Under the pieces are notes generated by a model. The model made no database searches and had not been told where the DNA came from. It worked only from the letters and a program-made list of their open reading frames with translations. 45,874 nt of DNA from Opitutaceae bacterium (GTDB taxonomy: Bacteria > Verrucomicrobiota > Verrucomicrobiia > Opitutales > Opitutaceae), in the NCBI GenBank assembly GCA_003164715.1, contig PLTZ01000062.1:1-45874 (forward strand). Reading direction: 5' to 3'. Shown in pieces: positions 224 through 24,711 of this stretch. A program made the translations under genes and the position numbers. The first letter of the stretch is position 1. The number at the start of each line of letters is the position of its first letter.

Positions 224-1435
224 TCACGCGACCTCGACCACGGGCGCCGGCCGCAGCAGGCCGCCCACCGTCTCCAGCAGCGCCTGGACCTTGAAGGGCT
301 TGAAGAGGATCGCGCCCCCGTACTGCTCCAGCTTCCCGTTTCGCGCCGATCCCGAGAGACCGCTGATGGCGAGGACCTTCACCCCGGGGTTCATGTGTTG
401 GACGATGCCCGCGAGGGCGACGCCGTCGAGGTTGGGCATGATCAGGTCCGTGATCACCAGTTTGACCTCGGTGCTGCGCGTTGAGAAGAGCGCCACCGCC
501 TCCGAGCCGTCGCTCGCCGTGAGCACCCGGTACCCGTGGCGCGTGAGCATCGCGGCCGTGATGTCGCGTATCTGCGGCTCGTCGTCCACGACAAGAATGA
601 GCTCCCCCTGACCGCGCGCTCCCTTGGGCTCGGCTGGGGTGACGCCCTGCGTGCCGGCGGGGACATCCGCCGCGGGCAGATAGACGCGGAACGTGGTGCC
701 GCGGCCGGCGTAGGTCATGAGGCTAATAAACCCGTTGTGGTTCTCCACGATGCTCCGCACCGTCGACAGGCCGATTCCCGTCCCCTTGCCCGCCTCCTTG
801 GTGGTGAAGAAGGGCTCAAAGATGTGCGCCAGCGCGTCGTGGGGGATCCCGGTCCCGGAGTCCTCGACGTGCAGGACGATCCACGCGCCCGGGCGCCCTC
901 CGGGGATCTTTCGGGCCATGGTTTCGTCAAGGAGCGTATTCTCGGCGGTGAGGTAGAGCGTCCCCCCGTCCGGCATCGCGTCGCGGGCGTTGATGCAGAG
1001 GTTGAGGAGCACCTGGTGGATCTGGGTGGGATCGGCCATGATGGGCCAAAGGTTGCCGGGGAAGTTGTCCACCACCCGGATGTTCTTCGGGAACGTCTCG
1101 GCCGCCACGCTGACCGTCTCCTGAAGCAGGTGCTTCAGGTCGACCGGCTGCGGGACGCTCGCCGCGCCGTGCGCAAAGCTGAGGATCTGGCGCACGAGGT
1201 CGACGCCACGCTCGGCGCTCTTCTCGAGCGAGGCGATGATGCGCAGGTCGTCGGGATTGGTCGCGTGCTCCCTGAGGATGGGTGCCGCAAGCACTATGGG
1301 CGAAAGAACGTTGTTGAGGTCGTGGGCGATCCCTGAGGCGAGCATGCCCAGGCTCTCAAGCCGGCTGGCGCGCAGGGCATTTTCGTCCGCGCGCTTCATT
1401 TGGCCGGCCCCGTCGCATGTCAGGGTAGCGCTCAT
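224..1435 (-). CDS. Soluble hybrid histidine kinase with C-terminal receiver domain
   Basis: The protein has 403 residues and no transmembrane segment. A very short N-terminus leads directly into the H-box (GIAHDLNN, His38). It then shows the N-box (LCINARDAMPDGG), G1 (DSGTGIP), F-box (FEPFFTTK) and G2 (GKGTGIGLS) of a HATPase domain. A receiver domain fills roughly residues 280-395: acidic pair in VVDDEP, phospho-acceptor Asp330 in ITDLIMP, Ser in AISG and Lys in FKPF. There is no PAS, GAF or HAMP sensor, so input must come through a partner or the short N-terminus. It is divergent from the response regulator at 1726, and the two may form one pathway (inference). ATG at 1435 is used; an internal ATG at codon 13 would leave the H-box intact. 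Confidence 0.9.
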   Translation of the reverse strand: MSATLTCDGAGQMKRADENALRASRLESLGMLASGIAHDLNNVLSPIVLAAPILREHATNPDDLRIIASLEKSAERGVDLVRQILSFAHGAASVPQPVDLKHLLQETVSVAAETFPKNIRVVDNFPGNLWPIMADPTQIHQVLLNLCINARDAMPDGGTLYLTAENTLLDETMARKIPGGRPGAWIVLHVEDSGTGIPHDALAHIFEPFFTTKEAGKGTGIGLSTVRSIVENHNGFISLMTYAGRGTTFRVYLPAADVPAGTQGVTPAEPKGARGQGELILVVDDEPQIRDITAAMLTRHGYRVLTASDGSEAVALFSTRSTEVKLVITDLIMPNLDGVALAGIVQHMNPGVKVLAISGLSGSARNGKLEQYGGAILFKPFKVQALLETVGGLLRPAPVVEVA

Positions 1436-1725
1436 GTTCGCCGCGGGCCGACGGCCTGGAGGGCGGTCCCCCTTTCCCCATGTCCGCGCCTGCCAGCGCG
1501 CCGTCTGCTGCGCCCGGTTTGCGCACCGAGGAGGCCTTCCAGCGGTTCGAATCGGAGCCCAGTCTGGAGGCCGAGATCTTCCATAAGAGGCAAACTGTAT
1601 GCAGAGACTGTATTCTCGACTCTGATTTCTACGTCTTTTTACGTAATTCTAACGATCTGCCTCGTGGCCGTGCCATCGTTAGAAGAAAGGTTGAGGTTAA
1701 GGTTGTTTCACCCCAGAAGTTCCGC
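1436..1725. promoter_or_regulatory. Divergent intergenic region between kinase and response regulator
   Basis: About 290 bp separate the two divergent starts. The right half (around 1580-1710) is much richer in A/T than the flanking genes and contains runs such as TTTTTACGTAATTC, so promoters for the regulator gene probably lie here. An open frame runs from 1480 into the regulator, but its first 80 or so codons give a low-complexity sequence unlike any receiver N-terminus, and I treat it as non-coding. No -35/-10 pair is clear enough to place. Confidence 0.35.
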
Positions 1726-2388
1726 GTGAATATCGTAATCGTCGAAGACCATTTGATGATCCGTGACGTGATCAAGAAGGTCTGCAGCACGGAATTCGGC
1801 TATTCCGTTGTCGGCGAGACAGATTCGGGCGTCCAGGCGGTCGAGCTGATCCTCAAACACCGGCCGGATGTGGTGATCCTAGACCTGTCGCTTCCCGACA
1901 TGGACGGATTCAACGTGGCGGACCGCGTGCTGAAGGTGATCCCGAGCCTGCGCATCCTCATGCTCTCGTCGCACTGCGACGACTACACGCTCTTCAGGGT
2001 GGAGAAATCGGGCGTGCACGGCTTCATCGACAAGAACTCGAACACTTTGGATATCCTCCGCGACGCCCTGAAGGCCATTGCGGAGGGCCGGATCTATTTC
2101 TCCCAGGCGTTCCAGACGGCGCGGATGGCCCGTCGGTCGGACCCGCGCTCGTTCATCAAGGTGCTCTCGGACTGGGAGCGGGCGATTCTCTCCCTGATCG
2201 GGCAGGGGCTGAGCGACGAGGAGATCGGCGAGCGGCTCAACCTGTCTCCCCGAACGGTCCAGACCCACCGCAGCAACATCCTGCGCAAGCTCGACCTGAA
2301 GGGGACTCCCAAATTGATCGCCTTCGCGGTCGAGCACGGGTTCACGCAGGTCCAGTCGAAGCACGGATCGATTCCAGTTTATACCTGA
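1726..2388 (+). CDS. NarL/FixJ-type response regulator (receiver + LuxR HTH)
   Basis: From the GTG at 1726 the 220-residue product begins MNIVIVEDH, exactly where a receiver domain should begin. The receiver has acidic residues in VEDH, phospho-acceptor Asp53 in ILDLSLPD, Ser in MLSSH and Lys in FIDKNS. The C-terminal part (about residues 140-205) is a GerE/LuxR helix-turn-helix: [20 protein letters not shown] followed by [16 protein letters not shown], with the usual T-V-x-T-H-R recognition helix. It should bind DNA as a dimer when phosphorylated. No strong Shine-Dalgarno sequence is visible before the GTG; the start rests on domain boundaries. The last 47 bp overlap the 3' end of the convergent hybrid kinase gene. 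Either neighbouring kinase could be its partner (inference). Confidence 0.88.
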
Positions 2389-5300
2389 AGGCTGCGAATT
2401 CGCGCTCGAACTCGGCGAAGATGCCCTGAAGCTTGTCGGGGGTAGCGTTTGCGGCGTTCCTCTGGAGCTCCGCGGCCAGCCTGCTCAGGCGCTCGTACTT
2501 GACGACGCTGCAGTGCGAGAGAAGCCGGTGCGCGATCCGGTGGATCTCCTCCCGCTCGCCCGTCTCCAGGATCCGCCGGGCGCTCAGGCGGTCGCTGTCG
2601 AACGAGGCCAGGAAGCGGTCGATCTGGCTGGCCAGCCCCTCGAGGGTCTCGTTGCCGAGGAACCTGAGCATCTCGAGGTCGATCTCGCCCTGAGGCTCGA
2701 GGGTGATGTGCTGGGAGCGCACCTCGATCGATGCCGCTGTCCGCAGCGGCCCCGCCAGGTCCCGGAGCGCCTCCGCGATCTTCGCCGGGGTGATCGGCTT
2801 GGAGATGAAGGCGTCCATCCCGGCCTGCAGGCAGGCCTCCTTGTTGAAGTCCGAGGAGTGGGCCGTCGTGGCGATGATGATCGTCCGGCGGGTCGACGGC
2901 TCCACGGCGCGGTAGCGCGAGGCGACCTCGGTGCCGATCATGCCGGGCAGGTTCCAGTCGAGGAAGGCGACGTCGTAGTACGAGTTCTGCAGGCGCGCCA
3001 GCGCCGCAATCCCGTCGTTCACGACGTCAGACTGGATGTCGAGCTTGCGCAGCACGGCCTGCATCGCGACGACGTTGTAGTCGATGTCCTCGACGATGAG
3101 GGCGCGCAGCGGCGTCGCGCGCGCGGGCTTGGCAGCCGTCCCTCCGGCGGAGTCGCCGATCGTCAGGAATGGGATCTCGGCCCAGAAGCACGACCCCTCC
3201 CCGGGCTCGGAATCCACGCCGACCCGTCCCCCCATCTTGCCCGCCAGGAGCCTGCAGACGGCGAGGCCGAGGCCCGTGCCCCGTATGTTGCCCGCGCGCG
3301 CCGACTCGAGCCGCGTGAACTTCGTGAAGAGGGTGGCGATCTCCGCCTCCGTCATCCCCACGCCCTGGTCGCGCACGAAGAACCGCACCCTCTCGTGGAA
3401 CCCGGGCGAGGCCCCGACGACGATCGGCTTTCCGGCGCCGAACTTGAGCGCGTTGGTGAGATAGTTGAGGACGATCTGCTGGACGCGGGCGGAATCGCCC
3501 ACGAGCTGCTCGGGAACCTTGGCGTCGATCGAGAGGCTGATGGTGGCCCCGGTGGATCGCGCGCTCTCCGCCATCATCGCCGCGCACTGCTCCAGGAGCA
3601 CCTGCAGCGAGAACGGCGCCGACCTTAGCTCGATCTTTCCCGCCTCGATCTTCGAGAAGTCGAGCACGTCGTCTACGAGGGTCGCCAGGAGCGTGGCGCA
3701 GCTGTTGATGGAGTCCGCAAGGTAGCGCTGCCGCTTGTCGAGGGCCGTCTCCTCGAACGCGAGCGAGAGCCCGAGGATGCCGGAAATGGGGTTCCTGATC
3801 TCGTGGCTCATGTTGGCGAGGAACTCGGATTTCGCCTCGTTGGCCTTCTCCAGCTGCTCGGTCTTCTTCTTGACGAGCGCCTCGAGCCTGACGTTCTGGC
3901 GCCGCAGGAAGGCGACCCTCCATTGGAAGGCTCCGAAGACGGCCGCCGCAAGCAGGAGGCTGAATACTGCCAGGGCGGGCATCGTCTTGTACCAGGGGGG
4001 AAGGACTGTGAACCGCCACGTGGCGGCGGGACCGACCGTCCCGGCGTCGTTCACGACGCGCACCGAGAATTCGTAGCTTGAGTCACGGAGCCCAGCGAGG
4101 ACGAGGTGGTTGTCGTTGCTCGGGGGTGACCAGTCGCCTCCGGAGAGTTTGGTCTGGAACCGGACCGATTCGCGGCGCCCGTATTCCACCGCGGAGAAAT
4201 CGAAGCTGGCGGAGTTCTGGTCTGCCGGGAGCTTCTCGCCCTGGCTCACGCTGGCGCGCAGGACGGGTGCGCGCGGGGCCTCGACCGGCTTAACGTGTTG
4301 CGTATCAATCCGAAGCATGCCATCCGTTCCCCCGAGCCACACGATGCCGCGCGTGTCGACGAAAATGGACACGATTTCACCGACCTGCGACAGGCCCGGA
4401 ATCGCGTAGGGCTCCCACGATGCGATGCCGGCGGACCCGATGGAGAGCCGCCCGATCACGGGCAGCCTCGGTCCGTCTGAGAACGGGCTCTCAAACGCGA
4501 CCCAGACCGCGCCCGACGGGTCTCGATTCGATAGGGCGGTTGCCAGTGACTTGGGGGCGTTGGCGATCAGGGTCGGCAGCGTGGAAGGCGATGCATAGGC
4601 CAGCACCCCCTTGGTCGTGAATACCGCGATCACAGGGTTGACCGCGGCGACGCCGACTCTTCCGGAGTCCGGAAGCCCATCTTTGGAAGCAAGGCGGATC
4701 GGCGTCGAAGGCGCGGCCGTGCTCGCCGGAATAAGGAACGCGCCTCGGGACGCAGTTCCGACCCAGACGTTTCCGATCCCGTCCTCTGCCATCGTCCACG
4801 CCAGGTCGGGCAGATGCGCCAGCGTCCTTGGGAGGTATCCATTCCCTGCGGTGTTCTCCAGGCGCACGACGTCGTAGCCGTCTTCGAGAAGGAAGCTTCC
4901 GGGTTCCTTCGTCGAAAGCCGCAGCATCACCACGTCCATCTTTGAAAGGAACATCTCCGTCGGAACCTCGCCGTCGATCCGGACGACCCGCTTGTACCCC
5001 GAGGCATAGACGGTCTCCCCGGGCCCGTTCTCGAGGTCTCTGTAGATTCCGGAGAGACTCGCGATCGCGCGAAAATGCGCGGTGTCAAAGTGCCCGGTGG
5101 GCAGCCCGTAGATCCCCTCCTGCGTGGCCACAAGGATTTCGGATCCCCGTTGAGCCACGCTGTAGCAAATTTTTCCGGCCAGCCCCTGCTTCGCGTCAAA
5201 CAGGCTGGCTCCTGACCCAAAGGAAACGCGGCTTATTCCCACCGCCGACGTCGCCCATAGCGCCCCGTCGTCGGAAAAGAAGATAGAGAATATGCCGCGA

Positions 5301-6196
5301 GACGGCAGCCCCTCCTCAATCGAAATGACCCGTTCAATGGCCCCGGAGGATCCTATCACGGCTATACCCCCGTACAATGTCCCGACACAAAGGTCCCCGC
5401 GCGGGCTGCGACAGACGGACGTGAGCACGTTTTTCCGGATGAATTCGCCCGCTTCGGGAGCAATCTCGAAAACGTGGCCGTCGTCGAAACGACGAAGGCC
5501 GTCATTAGTGCACATCAACCAACCCTTCGCGTCTTTTTCGATCCAGAACGTCGTAGCGTTCTTTATGTCCTGTGACGAAACGAACAGGTGTGGGCCATCG
5601 GCATCGAGCGACCAGAGACCGGATTGCGAATTGCCGATAAATACCCGCCCGTTCGCCTGCATTTCGACAAGCCGGCGGGCGCCGGGCATCGGATAGACAT
5701 GGAAGGCGGTGCCGTCCCACACGAGCACGGAGACCGCAGTCGTGAAAACGGCTCTGTTCCCATTGACGATGACTTGCCAGACGTCCCCGATACTCCGTGC
5801 CTCCGGGGGAAGCTGCGAGACGAGGGAGTGGTAGGGTGAAAGCCCTTTCTCAGTCCTGTCGAAATAGCCCACCTCATTCACAGCGCCCACCCAGAGCCGC
5901 CCATCTGCGCCCAGCGCCAGGGCCCGGACCGCGTAACTCCCGGGCACCGCGTTCCTGATCCATCGTTCCCCGTCGAAGCTGATCACGTCATCCGAGCCGA
6001 AGTAGAGCACTCCGCTCTTGTCCTGGGCCGTCACCCAGTATTCCACGCCGCCGCCGGTATCCCGTGCCGTGAAATTTGAAACGAGCAGCCGGCCCTCCTC
6101 GCAAAAGCAAACGGACGGCAACGCCAATGCGACGAAGAATAGGAACCGAATGATCCTACGGATCCGCGCGTGTTTCAATTTTTTCGCCGGTTGCAA
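2342..6196 (-). CDS. Propeller-type hybrid histidine kinase (Reg_prop, Y_Y_Y, HisKA, HATPase, REC, Hpt)
   Basis: This 1284-residue protein starts with basic residues and a hydrophobic signal segment ([17 protein letters not shown]). About 600 residues of Reg_prop-type repeats follow (motifs such as GxLWVG, GIVWLGG, ALWATS), then a Y_Y_Y domain near residues 665-730 and one transmembrane helix ([13 protein letters not shown]). A coiled coil leads into HisKA (NMSHEIRNP, His798), a HATPase (DQGVGM, GTGLGL), a receiver (Asp1080 in FLDWNLPG) and a C-terminal Hpt domain (IAHRL, His1223). This is the architecture of one-protein sensor/phosphorelay kinases such as the BT-type polysaccharide sensors, but with an Hpt rather than an AraC output. 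The Hpt implies transfer to a separate receiver; the convergent NarL-type regulator is the nearest candidate. The periplasmic ligand is unknown. Confidence 0.93.
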
Positions 6197-6317
6197 GTAG
6201 GGGCTAGTCTATCCATGCGGCGCTCGGTTTGACTACGGGAAAAGGCGTAATAATGGGCGTTAAATTAGGCGAATTAAGAAATCGGCGGGGGGTCCAGATG
6301 CGAGTAATTGTCGGTTG
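6197..6317. other. Intergenic region upstream of the YcaO locus
   Basis: AT-rich DNA between the hybrid kinase start and the small ORF at 6318. A six-codon ORF (6298-6318, MRVIVG) is preceded by a G-run (GGCGGGGGG, ending about 7 bases before its ATG), and its TGA overlaps the ATG at 6318. This could be a mini-leader or coincidence. The region must carry promoters for both flanking genes, but none is clear. Confidence 0.3.
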
Positions 6318-6503
6318 ATGAAAACCATTAACCGTATGGCATTGGGAACAGTCTCCAGCCTCCTGCTTTCAGCGGGACTGGCTCGGGTGGCCGCGAGGCT
6401 CGATCCGTTGACAAGGTCGTTGGGCAAGTCGGATTCTCGATCCAGCGCCAGCGAGGCGCCGACGAGTTTCTGCATGATGCCGTGCGCCTATATCCCCGAG
6501 TAA
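6318..6503 (+). CDS. Small ORF with Cys-containing tail, candidate peptide substrate of the YcaO enzyme
   Basis: It encodes 61 residues beginning MKTINRM. A helical, partly hydrophobic first half (to about residue 32) is followed by a Ser-rich stretch and a compact tail ending TSFCMMPCAYIPE. It ends 41 bp before the ATG of the YcaO gene on the same strand. About 70% of its third codon positions are G or C by hand count, high for an otherwise AT-rich gap and in line with coding use. The leader-plus-short-core shape with Ser, Thr and Cys in the tail resembles RiPP precursors, and YcaO enzymes commonly act on Cys/Ser/Thr or amide bonds in such peptides. I do not recognise the sequence itself, no strong ribosome-binding site is seen, and it could be a chance ORF or a small secreted protein. 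A 71-codon ORF on the opposite strand overlaps it and looks less convincing. Confidence 0.4.
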   Translation: MKTINRMALGTVSSLLLSAGLARVAARLDPLTRSLGKSDSRSSASEAPTSFCMMPCAYIPE

Positions 6504-6544
6504 CCTATAGGGTTTAAGCAAGCTGCGGCTCAATTCCTGTCACG

Positions 6545-7438
6545 ATGCTCAGCGTAGCCGGATACCGCTATCGAAACGTCCTTGAATCCGAAGGGGGACC
6601 CGTAAGCCGGGTCTCCCTCAGGGAATTCCCGGTCTACGGGCGCCCGATGTTCCAGGCGAACGCCTGGCTGTCGGACAAGATCGTGTCCCGCCGGCAGAAG
6701 TTCGCCCTCTACAGCGACGCCGACGGCACCGGGACGTCCGAGACTCCGATGGTCGCGCGCTACATGGCGATCTCGGAGACGATGGAGCGGTGGGCCTACC
6801 GCGTGAAGGTGCGCGCGGCCGACCGCGAGCTTTACGGCTTCGACATCGACGAGTCGTCGAACGGAATGGCGGCGTTCCCGGGGCTCTTCCACACGGAGGC
6901 CCGCAGGCGCGCGATGCTGGAGGCGGTGGAGCGCACCAGCATCATCGCCTGGTGGGAGGGCGGGATCGACGGGGAGGTCCGCTCGACCGAGTGGCCTGGA
7001 ATCAGCGCCCTCGTCCTGCCGAGCCCTATAGGGTTCGGCGTCACGGTGGTGGCGTTCCGGGAGGTGCGGCCGGACTGCTTCGCGTACGGCCAGGGCGCCG
7101 CGGTCGACTACTTCGGGGCCTGCGAGCGCGCGGTCATGGAGCTGGCGCGCACCGAGTACGTCCTCGGGCTGAGGAGGGTCTCGGTGGGCCTCGCGGCGCA
7201 GGACACGCCGTCCGACCTGTTCGAGCGGCGGTGCCTCTACTTCTCGACGGCGGAGGGCCACAACCTCTTCCAGGAGAGGATCCGCCGCAGGATCTCGGGG
7301 CCGCGCTTCAGGTCCGAGGTCATCTGCGACACGGAGATCGAGGGGCCCTGGTCCGAGTACGCCTCGGTGTGGAGGGTGCTGATTCGGCCCGCGACGCCGG
7401 ACTTCCTCGTCAACTCCGAGAGGTACTTCTTCTGGTGA
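6545..7438 (+). CDS. YcaO-family ATP-dependent cyclodehydratase-like enzyme, short form
   Basis: The 297-residue protein shows the three acidic ATP/Mg-binding blocks of the YcaO fold: S57-D-A-D-G-T-G-T-S-E leading to AISETMER (Glu78, Glu81), then AMLEAVER (Glu126, Glu129), then AYGQGAA leading to ACERAVMELAR (Glu194, Glu199). Known YcaO proteins use ATP to activate a backbone amide, giving azolines, thioamides or amidines in peptides or proteins; E. coli YcaO affects RimO-dependent ribosome modification. This one is far shorter than E. coli YcaO or typical azoline-forming D proteins and ends in SERYFFW, not the proline-rich tail important in many azoline-forming members. No E1-like/ocin-ThiF, TfuA, dehydrogenase or protease gene is adjacent. 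The small ORF just upstream may be the substrate. Family assignment is fairly firm; reaction and substrate are open. Confidence 0.78.
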   Translation: MLSVAGYRYRNVLESEGGPVSRVSLREFPVYGRPMFQANAWLSDKIVSRRQKFALYSDADGTGTSETPMVARYMAISETMERWAYRVKVRAADRELYGFDIDESSNGMAAFPGLFHTEARRRAMLEAVERTSIIAWWEGGIDGEVRSTEWPGISALVLPSPIGFGVTVVAFREVRPDCFAYGQGAAVDYFGACERAVMELARTEYVLGLRRVSVGLAAQDTPSDLFERRCLYFSTAEGHNLFQERIRRRISGPRFRSEVICDTEIEGPWSEYASVWRVLIRPATPDFLVNSERYFFW

Positions 7439-7595: not shown

Positions 7596-9713
7596 ATGCA
7601 ACCGACCGAACCGACACGCCAAGACGCCAGGAAACAGCGGGGGCCGCTGTGGGCGGCCGTCTCCGTGCTGGCGGTGTTCGGAGGGACGCTGGCTGCGTAC
7701 CTGCCCGCGCTCCACGGGGGGTTCCTCTGGGACGACGCCGCGCACATCACGGCCCGGAGCCTCCAGGGTTGGGACGGCCTCTGGAAAATCTGGTTCAGGC
7801 TCGGGAGCACCCAGCAGTACTACCCGGTGCTCCACAGCGCCTTCTGGGTGGAGCACCGGCTCTGGGGCGACTCGGTCCTCGGCTACCACCTGGTCAATGT
7901 CGGCCTGCACGCGGCGGCGGCGTGCCTGTTCGCGTTGGCGCTCGCCCGTTTCCTCGGCAGGGAGGGTGTCCCTGAGTGGCCCGAATGGCTCGCGGCTGCG
8001 ATCTTTGCGCTGCATCCGGTCTGCGTCGAGTCCGTCGCCTGGATCTCCGAGCAGAAGAACACGCTCTCGCTCGTCTTCTACCTTCTCTCCGCGGTCGCCT
8101 ACCTGCGGTTCGACCGCGCAAGGGGGCGGGGCTGGTACGCCCTGGCCTTCGGCCTGTTCCTGCTGGCCCTCCTCAGCAAGTCCGTGACGGCGACACTGCC
8201 CGGGGCGCTCCTCCTTGCTCTGGCGTGGCGCCGGCCGGGCCTGTCCTGGCGGCGCGACGTCCTGCCGCTTGTTCCCCTGTTCGTCGTCGGCGCGTCGGTT
8301 GGGCTCTTCACGGCCTGGGTCGAGCGGAACTATATCGGTGCGCGCGGCGGGGCCTTCGACCTCGGGCTTGTCAAGCGGTGCTTCCTGGCCGGCCGGATCG
8401 CCTGGTTCTACCTGGGGAAGCTTGTCTGGCCGGCGGACCTCGCCTTCATTTATCCGCGCTGGAGTGTCACGGCCGACTGGGCATGGAGCCTCGGCTCCCT
8501 AGGACTCGCCGCCGCCCTGGCGGTCCTGGTCGCGGTCCGGCGCACGTGCCGGGCCCCCCTTTTCGCGATGCTGTTCTTCCTCGGCTCGGCGTTTCCAGCG
8601 CTCGGCTTCTTCAACGTCTATCCCTTCATCTTCTCGTACGTGGCCGACCACTGGCAGTACCTGCCGTGCCTGGGCGTGATTGCGCTGTTCGCGGAGGGAG
8701 CCGGCGCCGCGGCCGAGGCAGCCGGGGCGGCGGGCGGCCTTCAGGGGAGGGTGGCGAGGGTCGCGCTTGCGGGCGCCGCCGCGGCGCTCCTCGTGGTCCT
8801 CCTTGTCCTTACCCGGCGCCAGAGCTCCCTGTACCGGGACGTCGGCGTCCTGTACTCGGACACCCTGACCAAGGATCCAGCTTGCTGGATGGCGCGCAAC
8901 AACCTGGGGGTCCACCTGATGGAAGGGGGCTCGCTCGACGCGTCGATCGCGCAGCTTGAGGAAGCCGTCCGTCTCAAACCCGATTATCCGGAGGCGCACA
9001 ACAACCTGGGCAACGCGCTGTCACGGGTGCCCGGCAGGCTTCCCGAGGCCATCACCGAATTCGAGGCGACCCTGAAGATCGATCCGGGAATGGCCGAGGC
9101 CCATGCCAACCTGGGAATCGCGCTCGTGAAGACGCCGGGCGGGCTCTCGGCCGGCGTCGCGCAGCTGCAGGCGGCCCTGCGGGGCGATGCCGACAATCCC
9201 GAGGCATTTGAGGCGCGCTTCAACCTGGGAAACGCCCTGGCGCGGCTCGGCCGATGGACGGAGGCCGCCGAGCAGTACCAGGCGGCGCTTAATCTCAATC
9301 CGGAGAGTTCCGAAACCCGCGTCAACCTGGGGGGAGCCCTGGCCGAGCTCGGCCGCGGACCCGAGGCCGTCGAGCAGTACCGGGCCGCGCTCCGCATCGA
9401 CCCGGGCTCGCAGGCGGCCCATTTCGACCTCGGGAGGGCGCTGCGAAACGTCGGCGACGGCAACGAGGCGATCGCCGAGTACCTCCAGGCCCTGCGGATC
9501 GGCCCCGACTCGGCGCAGCTAAGGAGCAGCCTGGGTTCCGCCTACTACCGCCAAGGCAGGATGGACGAGGCGATTTCCCAGTTCCGAAGCGCTGTGGAAC
9601 TGGAGCCCGGCTACGCCGACGCCCATTACAACCTCGCACTCGCGCTGCTCAAGGAGGGCCGCGGGGACGAGGCCGCGGTGGAATTCGCGGCGGCCGGGCG
9701 CCCACGGCCCTGA
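7596..9713 (+). CDS. TMTC-like membrane protein, putative GT-C glycosyltransferase with C-terminal TPRs
   Basis: This 705-residue protein has about ten hydrophobic segments over residues 17-420 and then about eight TPR units to the C-terminus (e.g. AHNNLGNAL, ARFNLGNALARLGRW, AHYNLALALLKEGRG). The first extracytoplasmic loop has an acidic pair in FLWDDA (residues 45-50), the position of the catalytic Asp in GT-C enzymes, and a later HPVCVESVAWISEQKN block matches the HPxxTExVA signature of TMTC/O-mannosyltransferase-like proteins. In animals TMTC proteins transfer mannose to cadherins; bacterial members are mostly uncharacterised. A lipid-linked sugar donor and surface target are likely but unproven. 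It converges with a paralogue at 9721, seven bases from its stop. Confidence 0.82.
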   Translation: MQPTEPTRQDARKQRGPLWAAVSVLAVFGGTLAAYLPALHGGFLWDDAAHITARSLQGWDGLWKIWFRLGSTQQYYPVLHSAFWVEHRLWGDSVLGYHLVNVGLHAAAACLFALALARFLGREGVPEWPEWLAAAIFALHPVCVESVAWISEQKNTLSLVFYLLSAVAYLRFDRARGRGWYALAFGLFLLALLSKSVTATLPGALLLALAWRRPGLSWRRDVLPLVPLFVVGASVGLFTAWVERNYIGARGGAFDLGLVKRCFLAGRIAWFYLGKLVWPADLAFIYPRWSVTADWAWSLGSLGLAAALAVLVAVRRTCRAPLFAMLFFLGSAFPALGFFNVYPFIFSYVADHWQYLPCLGVIALFAEGAGAAAEAAGAAGGLQGRVARVALAGAAAALLVVLLVLTRRQSSLYRDVGVLYSDTLTKDPACWMARNNLGVHLMEGGSLDASIAQLEEAVRLKPDYPEAHNNLGNALSRVPGRLPEAITEFEATLKIDPGMAEAHANLGIALVKTPGGLSAGVAQLQAALRGDADNPEAFEARFNLGNALARLGRWTEAAEQYQAALNLNPESSETRVNLGGALAELGRGPEAVEQYRAALRIDPGSQAAHFDLGRALRNVGDGNEAIAEYLQALRIGPDSAQLRSSLGSAYYRQGRMDEAISQFRSAVELEPGYADAHYNLALALLKEGRGDEAAVEFAAAGRPRP

Positions 9714-9728
9714 GAGGTTCCTACCTCT
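9713..9728. terminator. Small inverted repeat between convergent stops
   Basis: AGAGGT-TCCT-ACCTCT spans the seven-base gap between the stops of the two convergent TMTC-like genes. It is symmetric, so it could work in both directions, but it is short and has no T-tract. It is the only structure available for termination here. Confidence 0.3.
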
Positions 9729-11856
9729 GGGCCCGGAGCCTCTCCAGCATTCGGGTGGCGGAGGGGTCGTTCGGCCGGAGCTCGAGCACCCGCTCGTACT
9801 CGGCGGCCGCCTCGTCGCGGCGGCCGGTCTGCAGGAGGGCCGTGGCGCGCGCGAAATGCGCCTGGGCGAAGTCCGGCATCGCGCGGATCGCCGCCTCGAT
9901 CCGGGCCAGCCCCTCGGCCGGGCGCCCGGTGCGGCAGAGCATGATGCCCAGGTTGTTGCTCGCCTCGGCGAGGCCGGGGTCGATCCTCAAGGCTTCCTCG
10001 TAGCTGGAAACGGCCTCCGGGACCCGGCCGGCCTGGACCAGCGCGTTTCCAAGGTCGAAATGCGCGCGGGCGAAGTCGGGCTTCATCCTGAGCGCAGTCC
10101 GGTACTCCTCGATCGCCTGGGCGACCTTGCCCGACTGCGCAAGGGCCATGCCCAGGCCGTTGTGCGCCTCCGCGAAGCCCGGCCTCGCGCGGAGGGCGGC
10201 CTCGAACTGCTCGACCGCCTCCGCGGGTCGGCCGCTCCTGGCGAGGGCGTCGCCGTAGTCGACGCGACCCTGCGCAAAGCCGGGCTCCATCCGCAGCGAC
10301 TCCTCGAAGTGGGGGAGCGCCTGCGCGGTGCGCCCCGCCTTGTCGAGGGCCATGGCGAGGTTGAAGTGCGCCGCGGCGTACCTGGGCTCGAGGCTCAGGG
10401 CGGCCTCGTACATCGCGATCGCGTCGGCTGGGCGGCCGGCCCGGTCCAGGGCGTTTCCGAGGTTGTTGAGCGCTCCGGGGTAGGACGGCTGGAGCTTGAG
10501 CGCCTCCTGGTACTGGCCGATGGCCTCTCCGACCCGGCCGGCGTGAAAGAGGGCGAGGCCCAGGTTGTTGCGGGCGTTGGGGTTTTCCGGGCGCTTCGCC
10601 ACCGTGTCGGTCCACAGGGCCAGTTCGCTCCGGTAGTCGTCGTTTCGCGCCTGGGTGAGGAACCCGAGGGCAAGGACCACGAGCCCGAGGAGCGGCCACG
10701 AGCGCCTGCCAAGGAGCGCGTAGGTCAGGGCGACGGCGGCGACGGCCGCGGCGGCAAGCGGCAGGTACATGCGGTGCTCGGCCATGGTCTGCGTCGCCAC
10801 GGGCACGATGCTGCTCGGGGCGAGAATCACCAGGAACCAGGCGCCGAGGAACCCGACCGCGGGCCGCAGCCGCAGCGCCGCGAGCGTGGCCGCAGCGAGG
10901 GGTACCGTGACGAGGGCGAAGGGCGCCACCGCGGCGAGGCCCTGGAAGCGGAAGGGTCCGTACTCAAAGACGAGGGGCCTCGGCCACACGGCGAGGCCGG
11001 CGTAGCGGGCGACGGCCTCGATTTGGGCAAGCCAGTAGTCCCCGGGCGCCACGCCGGCGTTGAAGCCGACCGAGCCGCCGCGGTTCCAGCCTGTCGCCGC
11101 GATTAGGAGGGGAAGGGGCAGCCATGTCGCCGCGAGCGAAAGGTACATCCCCCTGCGCAGCTGCCAGGCCTTCCGGAACGAGCCTGCGGCGAATGTGCGG
11201 TCGTAGAGGAGCACCATGACGGGCGCCGTAGCCATGACTTCCTTGGTTCCCATGCCGAGGAGGCAGGCCACAACGGCTGCGGCCTGCCACCGCGCCGGCC
11301 GCGGGGACCCGACGGACCGGATGAAGAGGTAGAGCGTGAGCAGGTAGAAGAACCCCATCAGCGACTCGACGCGCTGGACGACGTAGGTTACCGACTCGGT
11401 CTGCAGCGGGTGGACGGTCCAGAGGAGCGCCGCGGCCAGCGCCAGCGGCAGCGCGTCCCTCCCGAAGCGCGCGCCAAGCGCCGGTCCGGCCAGGGTCCGG
11501 CGGACGATGCCGAAGAGCGTGAGGCCCGACAGGGCGTGGACGAGGAGGTTGAGCAGGTGGTAGCTCCAGACGTCCGTGCCGCTGAGCGCATAGTTCACGG
11601 CGAGCGTAAGGTTGGCGACCGGGCGGCCGCCCACCGTCGTGTCCCCCGGGGCGGACAGGAGCGCGTCCCAGGGCGGCCACAGGTGCCGGATCGAGGGATT
11701 CTCGGGGATCGCCTTCAGGTCGTCGTAGACAAAGGGCACCCGGAGGCTGTTGTGGTACGCGGTGGCCGCCGCGGCCGCGATCAGGACGGCCGCAAGGACC
11801 GCCTGCAACCGGCCCAGCTCCGGAGCCCGCACCGCCGTTGCTTGCACAGCCTTCAT
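9721..11856 (-). CDS. Second TMTC-like membrane-TPR protein, putative GT-C glycosyltransferase
   Basis: A 711-residue paralogue of the gene at 7596. An N-terminal membrane segment (VLAAVLIAAAAATAYHNSL) is followed by VPFVYDDLKAI with the acidic pair of the first GT-C loop, GGRPVANLTLAVNY, and HPLQTESVTYVVQRVESL, the clearest TMTC/DUF1736-like signature in the window. About ten transmembrane segments reach residue 410, then about eight consecutive TPRs (NARNNLGLALFHAGR, ALNNLGNALDRAGR, AHFDLGNALVQAGR). The TPRs would lie on the opposite side of the membrane or in a soluble domain and may hold the acceptor protein. It is transcribed towards the other copy. The sequences differ enough that the duplication is not recent (inference). 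Confidence 0.84.
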   Translation of the reverse strand: MKAVQATAVRAPELGRLQAVLAAVLIAAAAATAYHNSLRVPFVYDDLKAIPENPSIRHLWPPWDALLSAPGDTTVGGRPVANLTLAVNYALSGTDVWSYHLLNLLVHALSGLTLFGIVRRTLAGPALGARFGRDALPLALAAALLWTVHPLQTESVTYVVQRVESLMGFFYLLTLYLFIRSVGSPRPARWQAAAVVACLLGMGTKEVMATAPVMVLLYDRTFAAGSFRKAWQLRRGMYLSLAATWLPLPLLIAATGWNRGGSVGFNAGVAPGDYWLAQIEAVARYAGLAVWPRPLVFEYGPFRFQGLAAVAPFALVTVPLAAATLAALRLRPAVGFLGAWFLVILAPSSIVPVATQTMAEHRMYLPLAAAAVAAVALTYALLGRRSWPLLGLVVLALGFLTQARNDDYRSELALWTDTVAKRPENPNARNNLGLALFHAGRVGEAIGQYQEALKLQPSYPGALNNLGNALDRAGRPADAIAMYEAALSLEPRYAAAHFNLAMALDKAGRTAQALPHFEESLRMEPGFAQGRVDYGDALARSGRPAEAVEQFEAALRARPGFAEAHNGLGMALAQSGKVAQAIEEYRTALRMKPDFARAHFDLGNALVQAGRVPEAVSSYEEALRIDPGLAEASNNLGIMLCRTGRPAEGLARIEAAIRAMPDFAQAHFARATALLQTGRRDEAAAEYERVLELRPNDPSATRMLERLRAQR

Positions 11857-14528: not shown

Positions 14529-15503
14529 TCATGAGCCGCAGGCCTCGCAATGAGGTGGGGGCACGTCGCGCTGCGTCTGGTTCACCGCCTCCAACCGCTC
14601 GCGCCGCGCGGCAAGGCAACGGGGGCAGGCGGAGAACTGCTCCAGGGCCCACGTGTCGGCGAAGACCCGGCCGCGCCCCAGCGCGAGGGCCGCCCGCTGA
14701 GCCGCCTCGAGCGTTGCAAGGGTCGGCGCGACAAACTCACCCGATTCACGGAGCCGCTCCATCGCGCCGTTTCCGGCGCGGGTCGGTATGAGCGTCACCG
14801 CCCCCGCGCCGCACGCAAACGCGAACTCGGCCGATTTCACGGCCCAGGCCAGAGCCGACTCTTCGTCAAGGAAAGGCGGGTTTACCAGGATGAACGCGCG
14901 CAGCGCGATCCGCTCGGCCGCGAGGAATTCGGCGGCCCGCGCGAACTGCGCAAGGTCGAACTTCTTGTTCAGCTTCTCCAGCACCTCTGGGTGCGCGGTT
15001 TCGAGTCCCAGGGCGACCTCGAGCGTTCCGGACAGCAGGTCGCGCAGCACTCGGGCGCGATCGCCGACGAGAAGGGGGTGCGACTCCACGACCAGGTGGC
15101 GTGCGAAGGCGACCTTCCGGGCGATCGGCGCATAATCGGCAGGCGGGATCGCTGCCGGATCGAAGAAGCTGCCGCTGTTGTAGAGCTTCACCTGGGCCGG
15201 GAGCGGCCCCGAGTCCGACCACGCCCGGACCGCAACCTCCACCTGCCGCGGAATCGCTCCCTGCGGGACGGATCCGAGGGTGGTGTCCTTCCACAGGTCG
15301 CACATCAGGCAGCGCCACGGGCATTCGCGGTTGGTGAGTAGCACGACGCCGGAATCCACGACCTCGCCGGATGCAAGGCGCTCGCGTTCGCGGAAGACGC
15401 CGTGCGGCACATTAGCGTCGGGCGGGGGGGGCCGCGGCGGCCGCTGCGCGAGGATCCAGGCCGTGCGGCCACGCGTCGGGTACGCCGAGACCGTGCCCCT
15501 CAC
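14529..15503 (-). CDS. Radical SAM enzyme with C-terminal Cys pairs
   Basis: The 324-residue protein starts at GTG 15503, overlapping the TGA of the upstream gene (GTGA, 15500-15503). The radical SAM cluster motif CxxxCxxC is Cys61, Cys65 and Cys68 (ECPWRCLMCDLW). Further core elements are KLYNSGSFFD (strand 2) and ALGLETAHPEVLEKLNKKFD, reminiscent of the Elp3/MiaB/TIGR01210-type group, which act on tRNA. Near the C-terminus a CPRC and a CEAC pair could bind zinc or a second FeS cluster. Strict coupling to the asparagine-synthetase-like gene implies a two-step modification or biosynthesis. The substrate cannot be told from sequence. Confidence 0.82.
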   Translation of the reverse strand: MRGTVSAYPTRGRTAWILAQRPPRPPPPDANVPHGVFRERERLASGEVVDSGVVLLTNRECPWRCLMCDLWKDTTLGSVPQGAIPRQVEVAVRAWSDSGPLPAQVKLYNSGSFFDPAAIPPADYAPIARKVAFARHLVVESHPLLVGDRARVLRDLLSGTLEVALGLETAHPEVLEKLNKKFDLAQFARAAEFLAAERIALRAFILVNPPFLDEESALAWAVKSAEFAFACGAGAVTLIPTRAGNGAMERLRESGEFVAPTLATLEAAQRAALALGRGRVFADTWALEQFSACPRCLAARRERLEAVNQTQRDVPPPHCEACGS

Positions 15504-16819
15504 TGATAGATGGCGAGATACTGCCGGCGGTAGTCGGACTCCACGGGTCCCAGCCGACGGCGCAGGCCCTCGACGGGAATGGCCCCGTGCTGGAAACGGC
15601 GCTTTGTAAACACGGGCATATCGACGCCGAAGTGGGCCTTGATGCCGCGCCGGACAACCTCGCCCTTTAGGGAGTAGAGCCGGTCGACCGACATTTCGCT
15701 GAGCGCCGCGAAGGGAATGCCCTCGGCGACGGCAACGACCGCCGGCCGCATGAAGGGGCTAAAGCCCTCGAACCCGAAGCTCCGGGCGGGGGCATAGGTG
15801 CGCGTGTAGCTTCGGCTGAGTCCGCCGCTGTAGGTGAGCGAATGCTTGATCCGGCCGACCCCCCAGCCCTCCTGGTAAAGCATCAGGTTGTTCACGACGC
15901 TGCGGATCGTCAGCTCGGGATTCTCCTCAATCGGGTAGTCCTTCAGGTTCTCGTCACCGCCGTCGCCGTCCACCAGGAACCTCCACTGCGGATAACGAGC
16001 GCGGATGCCGCGGCAAAGGGCGAGCCCCATCGAAGCGCACTCGACGTCGAGAGGCTTGTAATCCTCGATGACGCGCAGGGTCTCCTCAACGCCGAGCGAA
16101 GCCGGATCCCCTTCGATGGTCTCGAGGAAGAGGCCGAGCCCGAGCCGGTCGAGAAACTCCCGCGCCTGCCGAAGATCGGGGCCGTCGCCCAGATTCAGGG
16201 TGAACGCCTTCAGCCGCGACGGATTCAGGCCGAGCTTGAGCATCACATGGTAGACCGTGAGGAAGACCGCGCCGCTATCGATGCCGCCGGAGAAGCACAC
16301 GCCGATCGGCTCGTGCGGGGGCAGCTCGCCGAGCCATTTCGCCGTTTCGTCGGCCAACGCGCCAATGTAGCTCCGCCCGATCACGTCGAGATCGGTTGGG
16401 AGAGCGTTGCGCCGCGGCGTGAAGAAACGGGTGTAGCTGGGATCGGGGTCCGGGCAGCCGACGAGTTGGAGCTCGACCACGTGGTGTGCCGGCACCATCC
16501 GCGTGTAGCTGGGGTGAAACTGCCGGTCCAGCCCCTCGCTCTGCAGATGCCGGTGGATCGCGTCGATGCGGTCGGAGACAATCAGCGCGGGGCCCTCGCG
16601 GCGCTTGGCGAGGAAGTAGCGCATCGGCCGGTCGAGCGAGCGCGCCATCCGCACGCGCTTGCCCTCCCGCGCGACAAGCGCGAAAGAGCCGTCGATACCG
16701 AGGACCGAGTCGGCGGAGCCGTGCAGAACGCGCTCACGGGCCTCCTCGACGGTCATATTGCGAATGCGCTGGGCTGCCGGGTCGATGAGATCGACAAGTC
16801 GTTCGATGTAGTCGTCCAT
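15500..16819 (-). CDS. Asparagine-synthetase-like ATP-dependent amidotransferase lacking the N-terminal glutaminase Cys
   Basis: From ATG 16819 (MDDYIERLVD) the product is 439 residues. The frame is open further upstream, but that extension is arginine-rich and looks non-coding. The first 130 residues retain the end of a class II glutaminase-like fold (VLGIDGSFALVARE, RSLDRPMRYF) but there is no N-terminal catalytic Cys2, so glutamine hydrolysis is unlikely. The synthetase half has the PP-loop SGGIDSG from Ser177 and a VDGDGGDENL block where asparagine synthetases have SGxGxDE. It should adenylate a carboxylate and join it to ammonia or an amine, like beta-lactam synthetase and lasso cyclase. 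It is translationally coupled to the radical SAM gene. Confidence 0.82.
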   Translation of the reverse strand: MDDYIERLVDLIDPAAQRIRNMTVEEARERVLHGSADSVLGIDGSFALVAREGKRVRMARSLDRPMRYFLAKRREGPALIVSDRIDAIHRHLQSEGLDRQFHPSYTRMVPAHHVVELQLVGCPDPDPSYTRFFTPRRNALPTDLDVIGRSYIGALADETAKWLGELPPHEPIGVCFSGGIDSGAVFLTVYHVMLKLGLNPSRLKAFTLNLGDGPDLRQAREFLDRLGLGLFLETIEGDPASLGVEETLRVIEDYKPLDVECASMGLALCRGIRARYPQWRFLVDGDGGDENLKDYPIEENPELTIRSVVNNLMLYQEGWGVGRIKHSLTYSGGLSRSYTRTYAPARSFGFEGFSPFMRPAVVAVAEGIPFAALSEMSVDRLYSLKGEVVRRGIKAHFGVDMPVFTKRRFQHGAIPVEGLRRRLGPVESDYRRQYLAIYQ

Positions 16820-17243
16820 GGAAAGAGGGGATGTCGGGGACGATAACCGGTGCTGCCGAAGCGGATCACGATCCGAAAAGCGCCGGATGCCGGACCGAAC
16901 CAGCAAGGCAGCTACTCGCCGCGCCGAAGGCAAGGCGAAACGACCCTCGGTCGAAGACGTGGCGGCCGTTCCTGCAACTGGCCCCGCGTCTCCCGCGATT
17001 CACCCCTGTTATATTTTGGGCCCGGTGATCGCATGTGTAGCTTACGCGGAGCCAACCCCGCCGGACGTCCCAGGCTGTTCCCTCGGAATACGGCTCGCTT
17101 CGGCGGACACAATGTATCCGAATCTTACATACCCAAATAGGTCTGCGTCCAAAACGCGAGCACAGGGTTGCTTCCGTGAGATGCGGCCACACCGTCGAAA
17201 AATGACAATTGTGGAGTCGTGTTCGATCCACTAGCGAGTGGGT
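16820..17243. promoter_or_regulatory. Divergent intergenic region upstream of the secreted-protein cluster
   Basis: About 420 bp separate the divergent starts at 16819 and 17244. It includes an AT-rich TTATATTTT near 17010 and another AT-rich stretch at 17100-17145. ORFs on both strands here show no family features and I treat them as chance. Promoters for both flanking operons should lie here; none is placed with confidence. Confidence 0.35.
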
Positions 17244-20200
17244 ATGTCCAAGCGCCTGATTTGGCTAAGCGGCATTTGTCTGGCGGCCATCGTCGCCGTG
17301 GGCGCCTTCAGGGTCCTCCTGGCTTCGAGAGCGTCGGCGTCGTTCACGCGCCTGATGAATCGCGGCAACGGCATGCTGGAGAAGGGCGATGCGTCCGGAG
17401 CGATTGATGTGTATGCGCGGGCGCTGCGGCTTTCGCCGGAGAGCACCGACGTCCGGCTGAACCTGGCGAATGCCTATCTCTTGGCCGACCGGCCGGAGGA
17501 GGCGGTGCCGATGTGCCGGCAGTCACTCGAGTTCGATCCCAACAGCGCCGCGGCGTATTTCCTGCTGGGCTGCGCGCTCCTGCGGCAAAACCAACCCGAG
17601 TCGGCCGCACAGGCGTTCCAGCAATCCTGGAAGATCGAGCCTGGAGTGCCGGCGCTCGACTTCCAGATGGGGATGGCGCAGGGGGCGCTCGGGCAGATCC
17701 CCGACGCGGTCCGTGACTTTGAGAACGTGATCCGAGCCGTGCCCGACCATCCCTCGGCCCATTACCAGCTGAGCCTGCTCTACAAGCGAGCCGGCCGGAC
17801 TGACGATTCGGCGCACGAGTTGGAGGTTCATCAGCAAATCCTGGGCCGTTCGCCCCGCCCGCCCACCACCGTGGCCGCGCTGGAGCGCTGCAAGTACACC
17901 CAACCGCTGGCGCCGTTTGTCCTGGGCCAGCCCGACTCTGTCGGCATTGCGGTTCGTTTTACGGAGGATACCGCCGCGGCGTTGGGTGCGCTCGCTACAA
18001 GCTGCCGCGGTCCGCTGGCCGTCATCGATTATGACCATGACGGTCGCCCGAGCATCTTCGCGCAGGAGAAGGACAAGGGATTCCTCCTGCTGGATGACCG
18101 CAGCGGCCATTTCACCGCGCTCGGCCGGCCGCTGCGCACGCCCGCAGGAGCCCGGTACCGCGTCGCCCTGGTCGGAGACCTGGACAATGGCGGCTTCGAC
18201 GACGTGGTGGTTCTCGGCGAACAGGACTCGCGCGTGTTGAAGCTCTACGAGCATGGCAGGATGCGCGATGCGACCCGCGCGGCGGGCCTCGAGGGAGTCA
18301 AGGCGAGTAGCGGACTACTGGCCGACCTCGATTTTACCGGGAACCTGGATCTTGTGGTTGTGCAGCCGGGCGGCGCGGGCCTGGGTCTTTACCGAAACCT
18401 GGGCAATTTCTTCTTTGACGGCAGCTGGAGCGACTCCGGCCTCCCGAGGGCGTTTCCCGGCGCCGCGCAGGTGATGACGCTCGACTGGAACAACGAGGGC
18501 CTTCCGGGAATGTTCATTGCCCGCGCGGGAGCCGCGCCCGCCTACTTCGCGAAGAAGCATGCTGCCGCGTTCACGACAAGCGACCTGACGCAAGGGTGGG
18601 CCGCCGGGTCGGTGATGGTTGTGGGCGATCTTGACAACGACCTGCGCGCGGAGGCGGTGATCGCGACGGCCACGACGCTCGAAATCGTTCGTCACGACCC
18701 AAGTCGCAACGCAAGCCTCCCGCTGAACGGCTTTCAGGTTTCCGGCCTATTGCTCGCCGATTACGACAATGACGGATGGCTCGACATCTTCGCCTACGGC
18801 AGCACTGGCGTGCGGGTCTGGCGCAATGCAGGCCATGCGGGCTTCACCGATGTGACGGAGAAGCTGGGACTGGACGGGGTCGGACCGGTTGACGGAATGG
18901 TCGCCGCCGATTTTGACGGTGACGGCGATACCGACCTGGTGACGTGCTCGGACGCCGGGCTGCGCTATTGGCGCAATGATGGCGGCAATCGGAACCTCGA
19001 GCTGAAGCTGCGCCTTGCGGGCAACCGCTCGAACACCTCGTCACTGGGGGTCCGCGTCGAGGTGATGGCGGGCGACTGGCGCACCAGCCGCACGGTAAGG
19101 CAGATTCCCCTGGAGATCGGCGTCGGGCAGCACCGGCAGCTCGACGCGCTCAAGGTGCACTGGTTCGACCTCTCCACGACCCAGGTCGACGTCCCCGTAA
19201 GCCGGGACGTGTATAAGGTGACCGAGCCGACGCTACCGAGCGGCTCCTGCCCCTACCTGTACGCGTGGGATGGGCGTGGGTTCGCGTTCGTGACGGACAT
19301 TCTCGGCGCCTCCCCGCTCGGCCTTCCGCAGAGCGAGAAGCGCTATGTGTCGGCCGATGCCGAGGAGCTGCTGGCGCTCGGCGACGAAACGAAGTTCCCG
19401 CCGCGGAACGGCGTCTATGAGATCCGGATCACGGACGAGCTGCGCGAGGCGCTCTACCTGGACGAAGCCCATCTCATTGCCGTCGACCATCCGCGCGGCA
19501 CCATCGTTTGCCCGACTAGCAAGATGCGCGCCGCACCGCCGTTCCCGCCCCACGAGCTCCAGACCCTCCGCCCACTCGCGACGCCTCGGCGTGCCGTGCG
19601 CAGCGACGGTCTCGACGTGACGGCGGCGCTGGCCCGCGTCGACGGCCAGATGGTCTCCCCGGTGCGGCTGCGTCGGCCGCAGCTGCGCGGGTTGGCCGAG
19701 CCGTTCTGGGTCACGCTCGACTTCGGCCCGCTGGCGGTGGAGCGCCCGCTCGTGCTCGCGCTGACCGGCTGGATCCATTTCGGCGGCGGAATGGCGAACA
19801 TTGCCGGGTCGCTCGACCCGACGCTTCCGTTCCCATTCCCCGTGCTCGACGCGGAGCTTGCGGACGGGACGTGGCGCAGGGTGGACGTGGATGTCGGAAC
19901 GCCCGCTGGCAAGACCAAGACCATCCTCGTTGACCTGGAGAACAAGCTGCCCGCCGGGGCGCTGCGGCTGCGCCTGTCCACGGCATACGAAATCTACTGG
20001 GATTGCGCGCTGCTGTGCGAGAAATCCGGGGAGGGGGACACGCGCGCCTACGACCTCATGCCCGAGCGCGCCGATCTGCACTGGCACGGATACAGCCGTT
20101 ACGCCGACCTGCCGCCATCGCTTCCCCTGACGCCGGTTCACGAGGAGGTTTCGCCGACCCCGCCGTGGGACCGAACGCCGGCCGGCTGGTTCACCCGGTA

Positions 20201-24209: not shown

Positions 24210-24711
24210 GCGGGGCGCTCTTGGCGACCTCGGTCCGAGACCGCGCCGACCCCGTCCGCTCGAGGCCCGGGTCCCCGGAAAGCCGAGGTGCTCGATCGCA
24301 GGCGGTTCACCCGAGGTTCCTCGGCCCGGGCATTGAAGAGCGGATCGAGTGCTTACCGAGAGCTTCGCGCACTACCACGGATGACGGGTGAACGTGCGGT
24401 GAACCCCTGACGCGGAATTGCGGCTGGCGGCTTCGCGTCGCTCGCGTTTGCGGCAAATATCGAGCGACCATTCACCCCCAAATTGCGACAATTCGCCACG
24501 TTTGGCTGGAGGTTTTTGCGCCCGACCGGCAACAGGTGAACAGGATGTCCTGCATTGTAGACCGGAGTTCCGGGTCGAGTGATGCTGAGCAAGCAGCGAC
24601 AGACACTTCAGGGGCGGGGGCATCAGCCTGGCTACTGAACAATATAAGGCGACCGGCCGTGCGCGGACTCGCCTTTGTTGCCCGGTGCAGCGGATCGCAA
24701 TCTTCACATTC
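24210..24711. other. 500-bp gap inside the secreted-protein cluster
   Basis: No convincing ORF is present on either strand. The base composition is less GC-rich than the flanking genes, especially 24440-24560. A promoter for a second transcription unit starting with the gene at 24712 is likely here, but no pair of boxes stands out. Confidence 0.35.

Follow-up and report, generated by a model that had tools for sequence, protein, structure and literature searches.

Background

In the streptamidine family, a standalone YcaO is encoded beside a short, often unannotated precursor in which a motif is sometimes repeated (PMC8442711). The locus described here resembles that family by its standalone YcaO, its short putative precursor and, in some relatives, repeated motifs. 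The family differs by its hosts (Actinobacteria and a few Firmicutes), by precursors that have no Ser/Thr/Cys-rich regions and share an ALV motif, and by a major cluster type with AmiB (predicted RRE/E1-like), a hydrolase, a dehydrogenase and ABC transporters (PMC8442711). Here, ALV occurs in 2 of 65 putative precursors; no AmiB-like or transporter protein was seen as a conserved neighbour in 41 loci, by protein clustering alone, and across many loci only kinases and regulators recur, unlike in streptamidine clusters. The bottromycin pathway has two partner-less YcaOs, one for the macroamidine and one for the C-terminal thiazole (PMC7136475, PMC8442711), within a different cluster and host, and the parts of these two papers considered here mention no dedicated two-component system. 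The preliminary description of our locus proposed that modification of a Cys-rich peptide by a single YcaO enzyme would be new; partner-less YcaOs as such have a precedent in these two enzymes (PMC7136475).

The ItfB-type YcaO of Bacteroidales is comparable in that a short precursor is modified near its C-terminus, giving a backbone amidine; the target lies between the last two residues of a peptide ending in Phe, and the clusters include radical SAM enzymes and peptidase-containing transporters (PMC10352776). Bufferins recall our peptides by a signal-peptide-bearing, Sec-exported precursor with Cys motifs, the modifying enzyme being an MNIO with a partner protein and not a YcaO; a signal-peptide-like leader is described as rare among bacterial RiPPs (PMC12452194). 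With the linear azol(in)e pathways of the SagD type, the locus shares the YcaO family, and Cys or Thr would be plausible targets. In agr-type circuits, a modified peptide, a cognate kinase, a regulator and an auto-regulated promoter are combined in one locus. The likeness to these is one of circuit logic only, known here from the genes alone, and our host is Gram-negative. In the Verrucomicrobia and Opitutus literature, surveyed largely without subscription papers, we found no YcaO peptide described from this phylum.

We propose, with a probability of about 0.8, that the gene pair reported here is a RiPP pair in which a short precursor is the substrate of the adjacent YcaO, under the control of a neighbouring two-component system.

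Organisation of the locus

The window, i.e. the whole stretch of 45,874 nucleotides analysed here, is one of the 92 contigs of a 3.79 Mb genome. The host is a soil bacterium related to Opitutus. The features of the module and its surroundings are as follows.

224..1435 (-): soluble hybrid histidine kinase, 403 aa (Pfam)
1480..2388 (+): NarL/LuxR-type response regulator (Pfam), convergent with the next kinase; its real start, judged from homologue lengths, is probably about 1726
1630..1647 (-): weaker operator match (1 mismatch) ahead of the likely start of the regulator
2342..6196 (-): hybrid histidine kinase, 1284 aa, with Reg_prop propeller sensor, HisKA, HATPase, receiver and Hpt domains (Pfam), divergent from the precursor gene
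6232..6249 (+): operator-like site ACTACGGGAAAAGGCGTA in the intergenic region separating kinase and precursor genes
6318..6503 (+): putative precursor peptide gene, 61 aa, with leader MKTINRMALGTVSSLLLSAGLARVAARLDP and a variable tail ending TSFCMMPCAYIPE
6318..6413 (+): conserved signal-peptide-like leader, residues 1-32, stopping just past the LDP motif, recognised from its dN/dS and its charge and hydrophobicity
6471..6485 (+): core motif Cys52-Met-Met-Pro55-Cys56, proposed P-C modification site, from its enrichment in 65 precursors
6545..7438 (+): short partner-less YcaO, 297 aa, C-terminus YFFW (Pfam, homologue alignment)

The 61-codon ORF (codons 6318-6500, stop through 6503) and the 297-aa YcaO ORF, separated by 41 nt on the same strand, are both present as initially claimed. 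Two putative glycosyltransferases had also been named next to them. Both proteins are there, as convergent TPR membrane proteins (7596-9713, +, and 9721-11856, -; TMTC-like by eye), but they are not conserved neighbours, their cluster being found in 6 of 41 loci, and PMT_2 was matched in one of the two only, below the Pfam cut-off. The glycosyltransferases lie outside the module. Some loci, most of them of the same genus, have relatives of these TPR proteins close to the module, in varying orientation.

Elsewhere in the window, a radical SAM protein (14529-15503, -; RaSEA similarity below cut-off) overlaps by 4 bases an asparagine-synthase-domain protein (15500-16933, -), and the two genes likely form one operon. 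Three large proteins follow in a row (17238-20546, 20553-24209 and 24685-26433, all +) with FG-GAP-like repeats, assigned by Pfam for the first, which also has TPRs, and by eye for the other two. A HipA-like kinase gene is found at 35072-36355 (+; HipA_C, 160 bits). The protein at 38254-42072 (+) has an unusual sensor-ATPase layout, combining YCF48/BNR propeller repeats with a weak, below cut-off NACHT/NB-ARC-like ATPase, and gave no PADLOC match; it adjoins a 1257-aa protein (42087-45860, -) with no Pfam match at 0.001 and a patatin-like GGGIR seen by eye.

A short YcaO without known partners

The Pfam YcaO model (PF02624) covers residues 103-207 with 34.7 bits, for a cut-off of 25.7, and this protein is the sole YcaO match in its genome at E<=0.001. 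The three acidic blocks pointed out in the preliminary description are kept among 45 homologues: E78 in 45, E81, E126 and E199 in 44 each and E129 in 42. Together with R82, N106, R130, R202, W269 and W276-R277, these residues are invariant or nearly so, and the final residue is W in 42/45. Alignment with E. coli YcaO by hhalign brought the SNGM...E..ER and R...E segments into register (E 2.9e-4, with a probability of only 40%); we take the conserved residues of the Glu blocks to be those of the ATP site, after structure work on the E. coli enzyme. An AlphaFold model made from just 4 sequences had a pLDDT of 35.6, and a PDB sequence search with a 45-row profile returned a single chance-level match (E 2).

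The enzyme reaches no NCBIfam cut-off. It differs from the linear azol(in)e type by its SagD score (TIGR03604, 20.1 bits versus 219.25) and by the lack of E1/ThiF in the Pfam results for seven neighbours in the window, which include no dehydrogenase partner either. TfuA (PF07812) was found in none of the 13 genomes of the window's genus. Within this scope, the claim of a YcaO devoid of known partners holds, and beyond the YcaO and the kinases and regulators no protein cluster occurs in more than 6 of 41 loci, gene calls being rough. By the tests made here, the enzyme belongs to the YcaO superfamily and not to the linear azol(in)e, thioamide or streptamidine kind; it would act without E1/ThiF, TfuA or dehydrogenase partners. 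In function, the module would resemble a RiPP pathway whose cluster contains its own two-component system.

Homologues were retrieved by protein query from 42 of 141 related genomes, its own included (46 matches, nearly all full length), with 33-89% identity outside its own genome; close relatives from named loci, three at 84-89% identity, belong to Opitutaceae MAGs. At phylum level, the 45-row profile detected the YcaO in 14 of 387 genomes, every one in the same order; at order level, in 40 of 372. No match was found among 72,556 plasmid records.

The small ORF as a conserved, putative precursor

A small ORF is located directly upstream of nearly every YcaO homologue and follows the pattern MKxxxRxxLGxxSSLLLxxGxxRAAxxLDP, continued by a variable tail; at L040 no such ORF was seen, and those of the distant homologues are divergent. 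So that the test would not be circular, an HMM was trained on the window's genus alone (nine sequences); the search space was 36 loci from outside it, with 9,635 stop-to-stop ORFs in total. It gave 32 matches at E<=0.1, of which 31, in 30 of the 36 loci, lie directly upstream of the YcaO, which argues that the small ORF, as first supposed, is not a chance one. In G044, the 32nd match is a second copy of the precursor immediately downstream of the YcaO (L220, 1008-1131 relative to the YcaO start, without Cys). Further loci were taken from 21 new YcaO places counted among the genomes of the order, of which 20 were examined and that of G592 was left out; 12 matches at E<=0.1 were obtained there, all directly upstream and in 12 of the 20 loci. 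At this threshold the model misses 6 of the 36 and 8 of the 20 loci, the latter eight having candidate ORFs of divergent subfamilies that were assigned by position only.

At E<=1e-6, a precursor model matched 36 of 42 YcaO-positive and 0 of 99 YcaO-negative genomes (141 searched); as it was built from the same precursors, the positive genomes are in part a product of its design, which the absences are not. Partial matches (E 0.002-0.008) were found in three YcaO-negative genomes, G066, G080 and G120.

Among the nine same-genus sequences, dN/dS was 0.14 for the leader, 0.68 for the tail and 0.11 for the YcaO (26, 23 and 36 usable pairs of 36), versus 1.1 and 2.5 when the leader is translated in either of its alternative frames, both of which contain stop codons; dS of 1.2-1.6 is near saturation, so these values are rough. 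Mean identity is 69% in the leader and 24% in the tail. These figures show that the leader is under selection as protein. Neither of the two results that the preliminary description named as refuting it, homologues with no small ORF upstream and an ORF free of selection as protein, was thus obtained, but for the exceptions given above. The arrangement is that by which RiPP loci are recognised, a co-conserved precursor with a leader and a variable core beside an enzyme; the 61-aa ORF would be the ribosomal precursor and its N-terminal segment the leader recognised by the YcaO.

A short ORF immediately upstream on the same strand could also be a regulatory leader peptide, i.e. an attenuation uORF of the YcaO gene and not a substrate. 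We give this reading hardly any credence: the leader is selected at the amino-acid level, precursor lengths vary and cores are repeated, G071 has two precursors, and the second copy in G044 lies downstream of the YcaO.

In all, 65 putative precursors were collected from 63 loci by position and leader, not by tail. Six loci (L018, L040, L043, L046, L050 and L244) were left out because of a contig edge, a run of N, a merger with a longer ORF or the lack of a clear ORF; L018, L043 (the same as L080), L050 and L244 do give model matches at the right place. Loci L248, L250, L251, L097 and L247, of the same order, have precursors of 39-40 aa without a clear signal-peptidase site, which end in, e.g., YPTEV, WPCEV or VGTEI.

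Core region and likely chemistry

The preliminary description had asked whether a CxxxC-like tail is always present. It is not: Cys occurs past residue 26 in 58 of the 65 putative precursors and is absent from the tail of 7; both precursors of G044 have none. P-C is found in 37/65 tails, compared with a mean of 9.5 and a maximum of 21 in shuffled tails (2000 shuffles), and C-x(1-3)-P-[C/T] in 26/65 (shuffled mean 2.8, maximum 9). One subfamily alternates Cys and Thr in one context (YPCEV and WPCEV versus YPTEV and FPTEV); such an exchange would be tolerated by a cyclodehydratase of Cys, Ser and Thr. The motif C-L/M-P-T-V of another subfamily is similar to C-x-x-P-C. Tandem cores, as in some RiPP precursors, are present at L025 (FCDTVCNF four times) and L252 (DTCTWPCE three times).

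From this enrichment, the Cys/Thr exchange and the conserved Glu-rich blocks, we consider that there is about an even chance that the YcaO cyclodehydrates the Cys (or Thr) of P-[C/T] to an azoline. The main alternative is an amidine.

Both products suppose that the peptide is the substrate. E. coli YcaO is annotated as a ribosomal protein S12 methylthiotransferase accessory factor, and modification of the precursor is a prediction only; the enzyme might accordingly act on another cellular protein, the small ORF being that of an unrelated secreted peptide, adjacent by chance. Co-occurrence and adjacency over large divergence and the tandem core repeats speak against this, and a patchy presence (40/372 genomes) ill fits a housekeeping target, which makes such a reading highly improbable to us.

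Probable export of the peptide

In the proposed RiPP pair, the leader probably doubles as a Sec-type signal peptide in most members. In a set of 33 precursors, a basic n-region was found in 32, a hydrophobic segment in 33 and an AxA-like site in 25; in the wider set this site is absent from 19 of 65, so Sec export is not universal. A Sec signal is thus likely for most of the precursors, not for all, and the shared hydrophobic segment of the leader may also serve enzyme recognition. No conserved transporter or protease was seen beside the module by clustering of rough gene calls in 41 loci, and for this reason we suggest that the peptide would leave the cytoplasm and be trimmed by general proteases.

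Kinase and regulator

The kinase, the regulator and the operator-like site, about which the preliminary description was silent, are the most informative part of the module. The propeller kinase is divergent from the precursor gene in 40 of 41 loci, with none found at L070, and likewise in all 20 further loci; one large cluster of kinase and regulator proteins spans 40 of the 41. A NarL-type regulator was found in 30/41 loci, five of the eleven misses being on short contigs, and a relative of the soluble hybrid kinase accompanies 11/41. In G015, YcaO, precursor, kinase and regulator are all present.

On a tree of 53 kinases (36 linked and 17 unlinked rows, with four short linked rows and L070 omitted), the linked kinases cluster, with 6 label changes versus a shuffled mean of 14.7, and are not monophyletic; the 'unlinked' kinase L180 begins at a contig edge and may be linked. 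Over 15 pairs from six genomes, the linked kinase has 46% identity in the sensor and 79% in the kinase domain, and an unlinked paralogue 56% and 65%, respectively. The ratio of sensor to kinase-domain divergence is 2.66 for the linked kinase versus 1.25 for the paralogue, and higher in 15/15 pairs; this paralogue is the one control, two other kinases being too poorly conserved in the genus. No precursor-like ORF was seen by eye upstream of the paralogue in the five genomic pieces checked. A specific co-divergence of sensor and core was considered and rejected: the partial r was 0.56, yet an equal value is obtained with the sensor of the paralogue, and r falls to 0.23 (p=0.13) once the paralogue is included as a covariate as well.

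As judged from the genes, kinase and regulator beside a peptide gene, with a site at its promoter, make up an anatomy of the autoinducing type. The propeller hybrid kinase and the NarL-type regulator would control the precursor-YcaO promoter through the intergenic site. That the kinase senses the mature peptide itself, in an autoinducing loop, is possible, with somewhat less than an even chance in our estimation; otherwise it would respond to another cue. The peptide could instead be a RiPP effector, antimicrobial or metal-binding in the manner of bufferins, and not a signal, with a kinase that senses an environmental or phage-related cue. We hold this tentatively, as a serious competitor on which we lean to the negative side. 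The fast divergence of the sensor relative to the kinase domain, measured with one control, is at odds with it, and so is the lack of any conserved immunity or transport gene (no other cluster in more than 6 of 41 loci, from rough gene calls); the non-specific sensor-core co-divergence is in its favour, and the Cys-bearing tails and signal-like leaders do recall bufferins (PMC12452194).

An operator-like site at the precursor promoter

The pattern ACTACNNNRAAANNCGTA is found upstream of the precursor in the window's genus, the copy of the window being at 6232-6249. These promoters are the ones from which the pattern was derived, so it must occur in them; the finding is how scarce it is elsewhere. 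In its strict form it occurs in 9 of 13 genomes of the genus, exactly the nine that have the YcaO, and not in the 4 YcaO-negative ones; 9 of its 11 matches are at the precursor promoter and only 2 elsewhere, and a reversed-pattern control gave 4 matches. Such near confinement to one promoter is what a dedicated producer circuit would show and suits the effector reading; in other genera, a palindrome found at this promoter also fronts kinases and regulators, which does not. In the search that gave the weaker match at 1630-1647, 0.31 matches were expected in the window and two or more were obtained in 4 of 100 shuffles; as a palindrome, the window's own site is not significant. Six loci of other genera have CTACCGGAATTCCGGTAG or a close variant at the same place. 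The highest palindrome score of an upstream region was 6.6 on average (32 regions), versus 5.4 after shuffling, with p<=0.05 in 7/32, so a strong palindrome is not general.

Recurrence of the palindrome in related genomes

With up to 2 mismatches, the palindrome is present at 1 to 13 places in eight genomes and is clearly above the control pattern in five of them (G035, G076, G018, G736 and G726; 7 to 13 places). A REP-like repeat was discarded as the source since the flanks are unrelated, and 38 of the 41 sites examined are outside any called ORF. Pfam was run on 30 of the 46 adjoining ORFs. The neighbours include soluble receiver-kinases, a NarL regulator, receiver-only proteins and two other kinases, together with unrelated ones: pectate lyase, FabA/ACP, PilM, xanthine dehydrogenase-like, DUF4159, M48 peptidase and proteins with no match. 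In G076, a palindrome is found beside the start of each of two similar proteins (L269, L271), which are about 210 aa long, signal-bearing and without Pfam match.

The sites of G726 mostly have the sequence CTTCCGGAATTCCGGAAG or one very close to it, with which the precursor promoter agrees at 15 of 18 positions. Five of its 12 sites, on five contigs (L306-L310), lie 52-630 bp before defence genes: type I-C CRISPR Cas3c with Cas5c and Cas7c (E down to 4.5e-197), a Cas3g helicase at 630 bp from its site with a small ORF between, a type I methyltransferase, an HKD+Snf2 protein with a PDC-S02 nuclease, and a DpdF/GajB-like helicase. In G035, one site with 2 mismatches precedes dndC-dndD (L312). 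The ten proteins scanned with PADLOC had been selected for looking like defence genes. As controls, 108 of the 124 proteins encoded in ten 20-kb stretches of G726, G035 and G736 were scanned (16 were left out); six PADLOC models had 1 or 2 matches each at E<=1e-20, mostly to generic regulators or transporters by name and one to a nicking endonuclease. No defence gene was found among the scanned palindrome neighbours of G018, of the same genus as G726. The link with defence is post hoc, comes mostly from the single genome G726 and relies on rough gene calls.

We presume that the YcaO-linked regulator would bind the palindromes of these relatives. A bolder reading, which we consider unlikely, is that of a Gram-negative RiPP pheromone read by the periplasmic propeller kinase, with a regulon that in some Opitutaceae reaches kinases and defence operons.

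Conclusions

The proposed RiPP pair would make up a minimal YcaO pathway with a single enzyme, guided by a leader that is signal-peptide-like. Its near-constant kinase partner makes the use of modified ribosomal peptides as autoinducers by Gram-negative bacteria directly testable. If the palindromes before defence operons were confirmed, they would tie a peptide signal to phage immunity, and if the pheromone and its wider regulon proved true, a modified peptide signal would modulate immunity in these bacteria.
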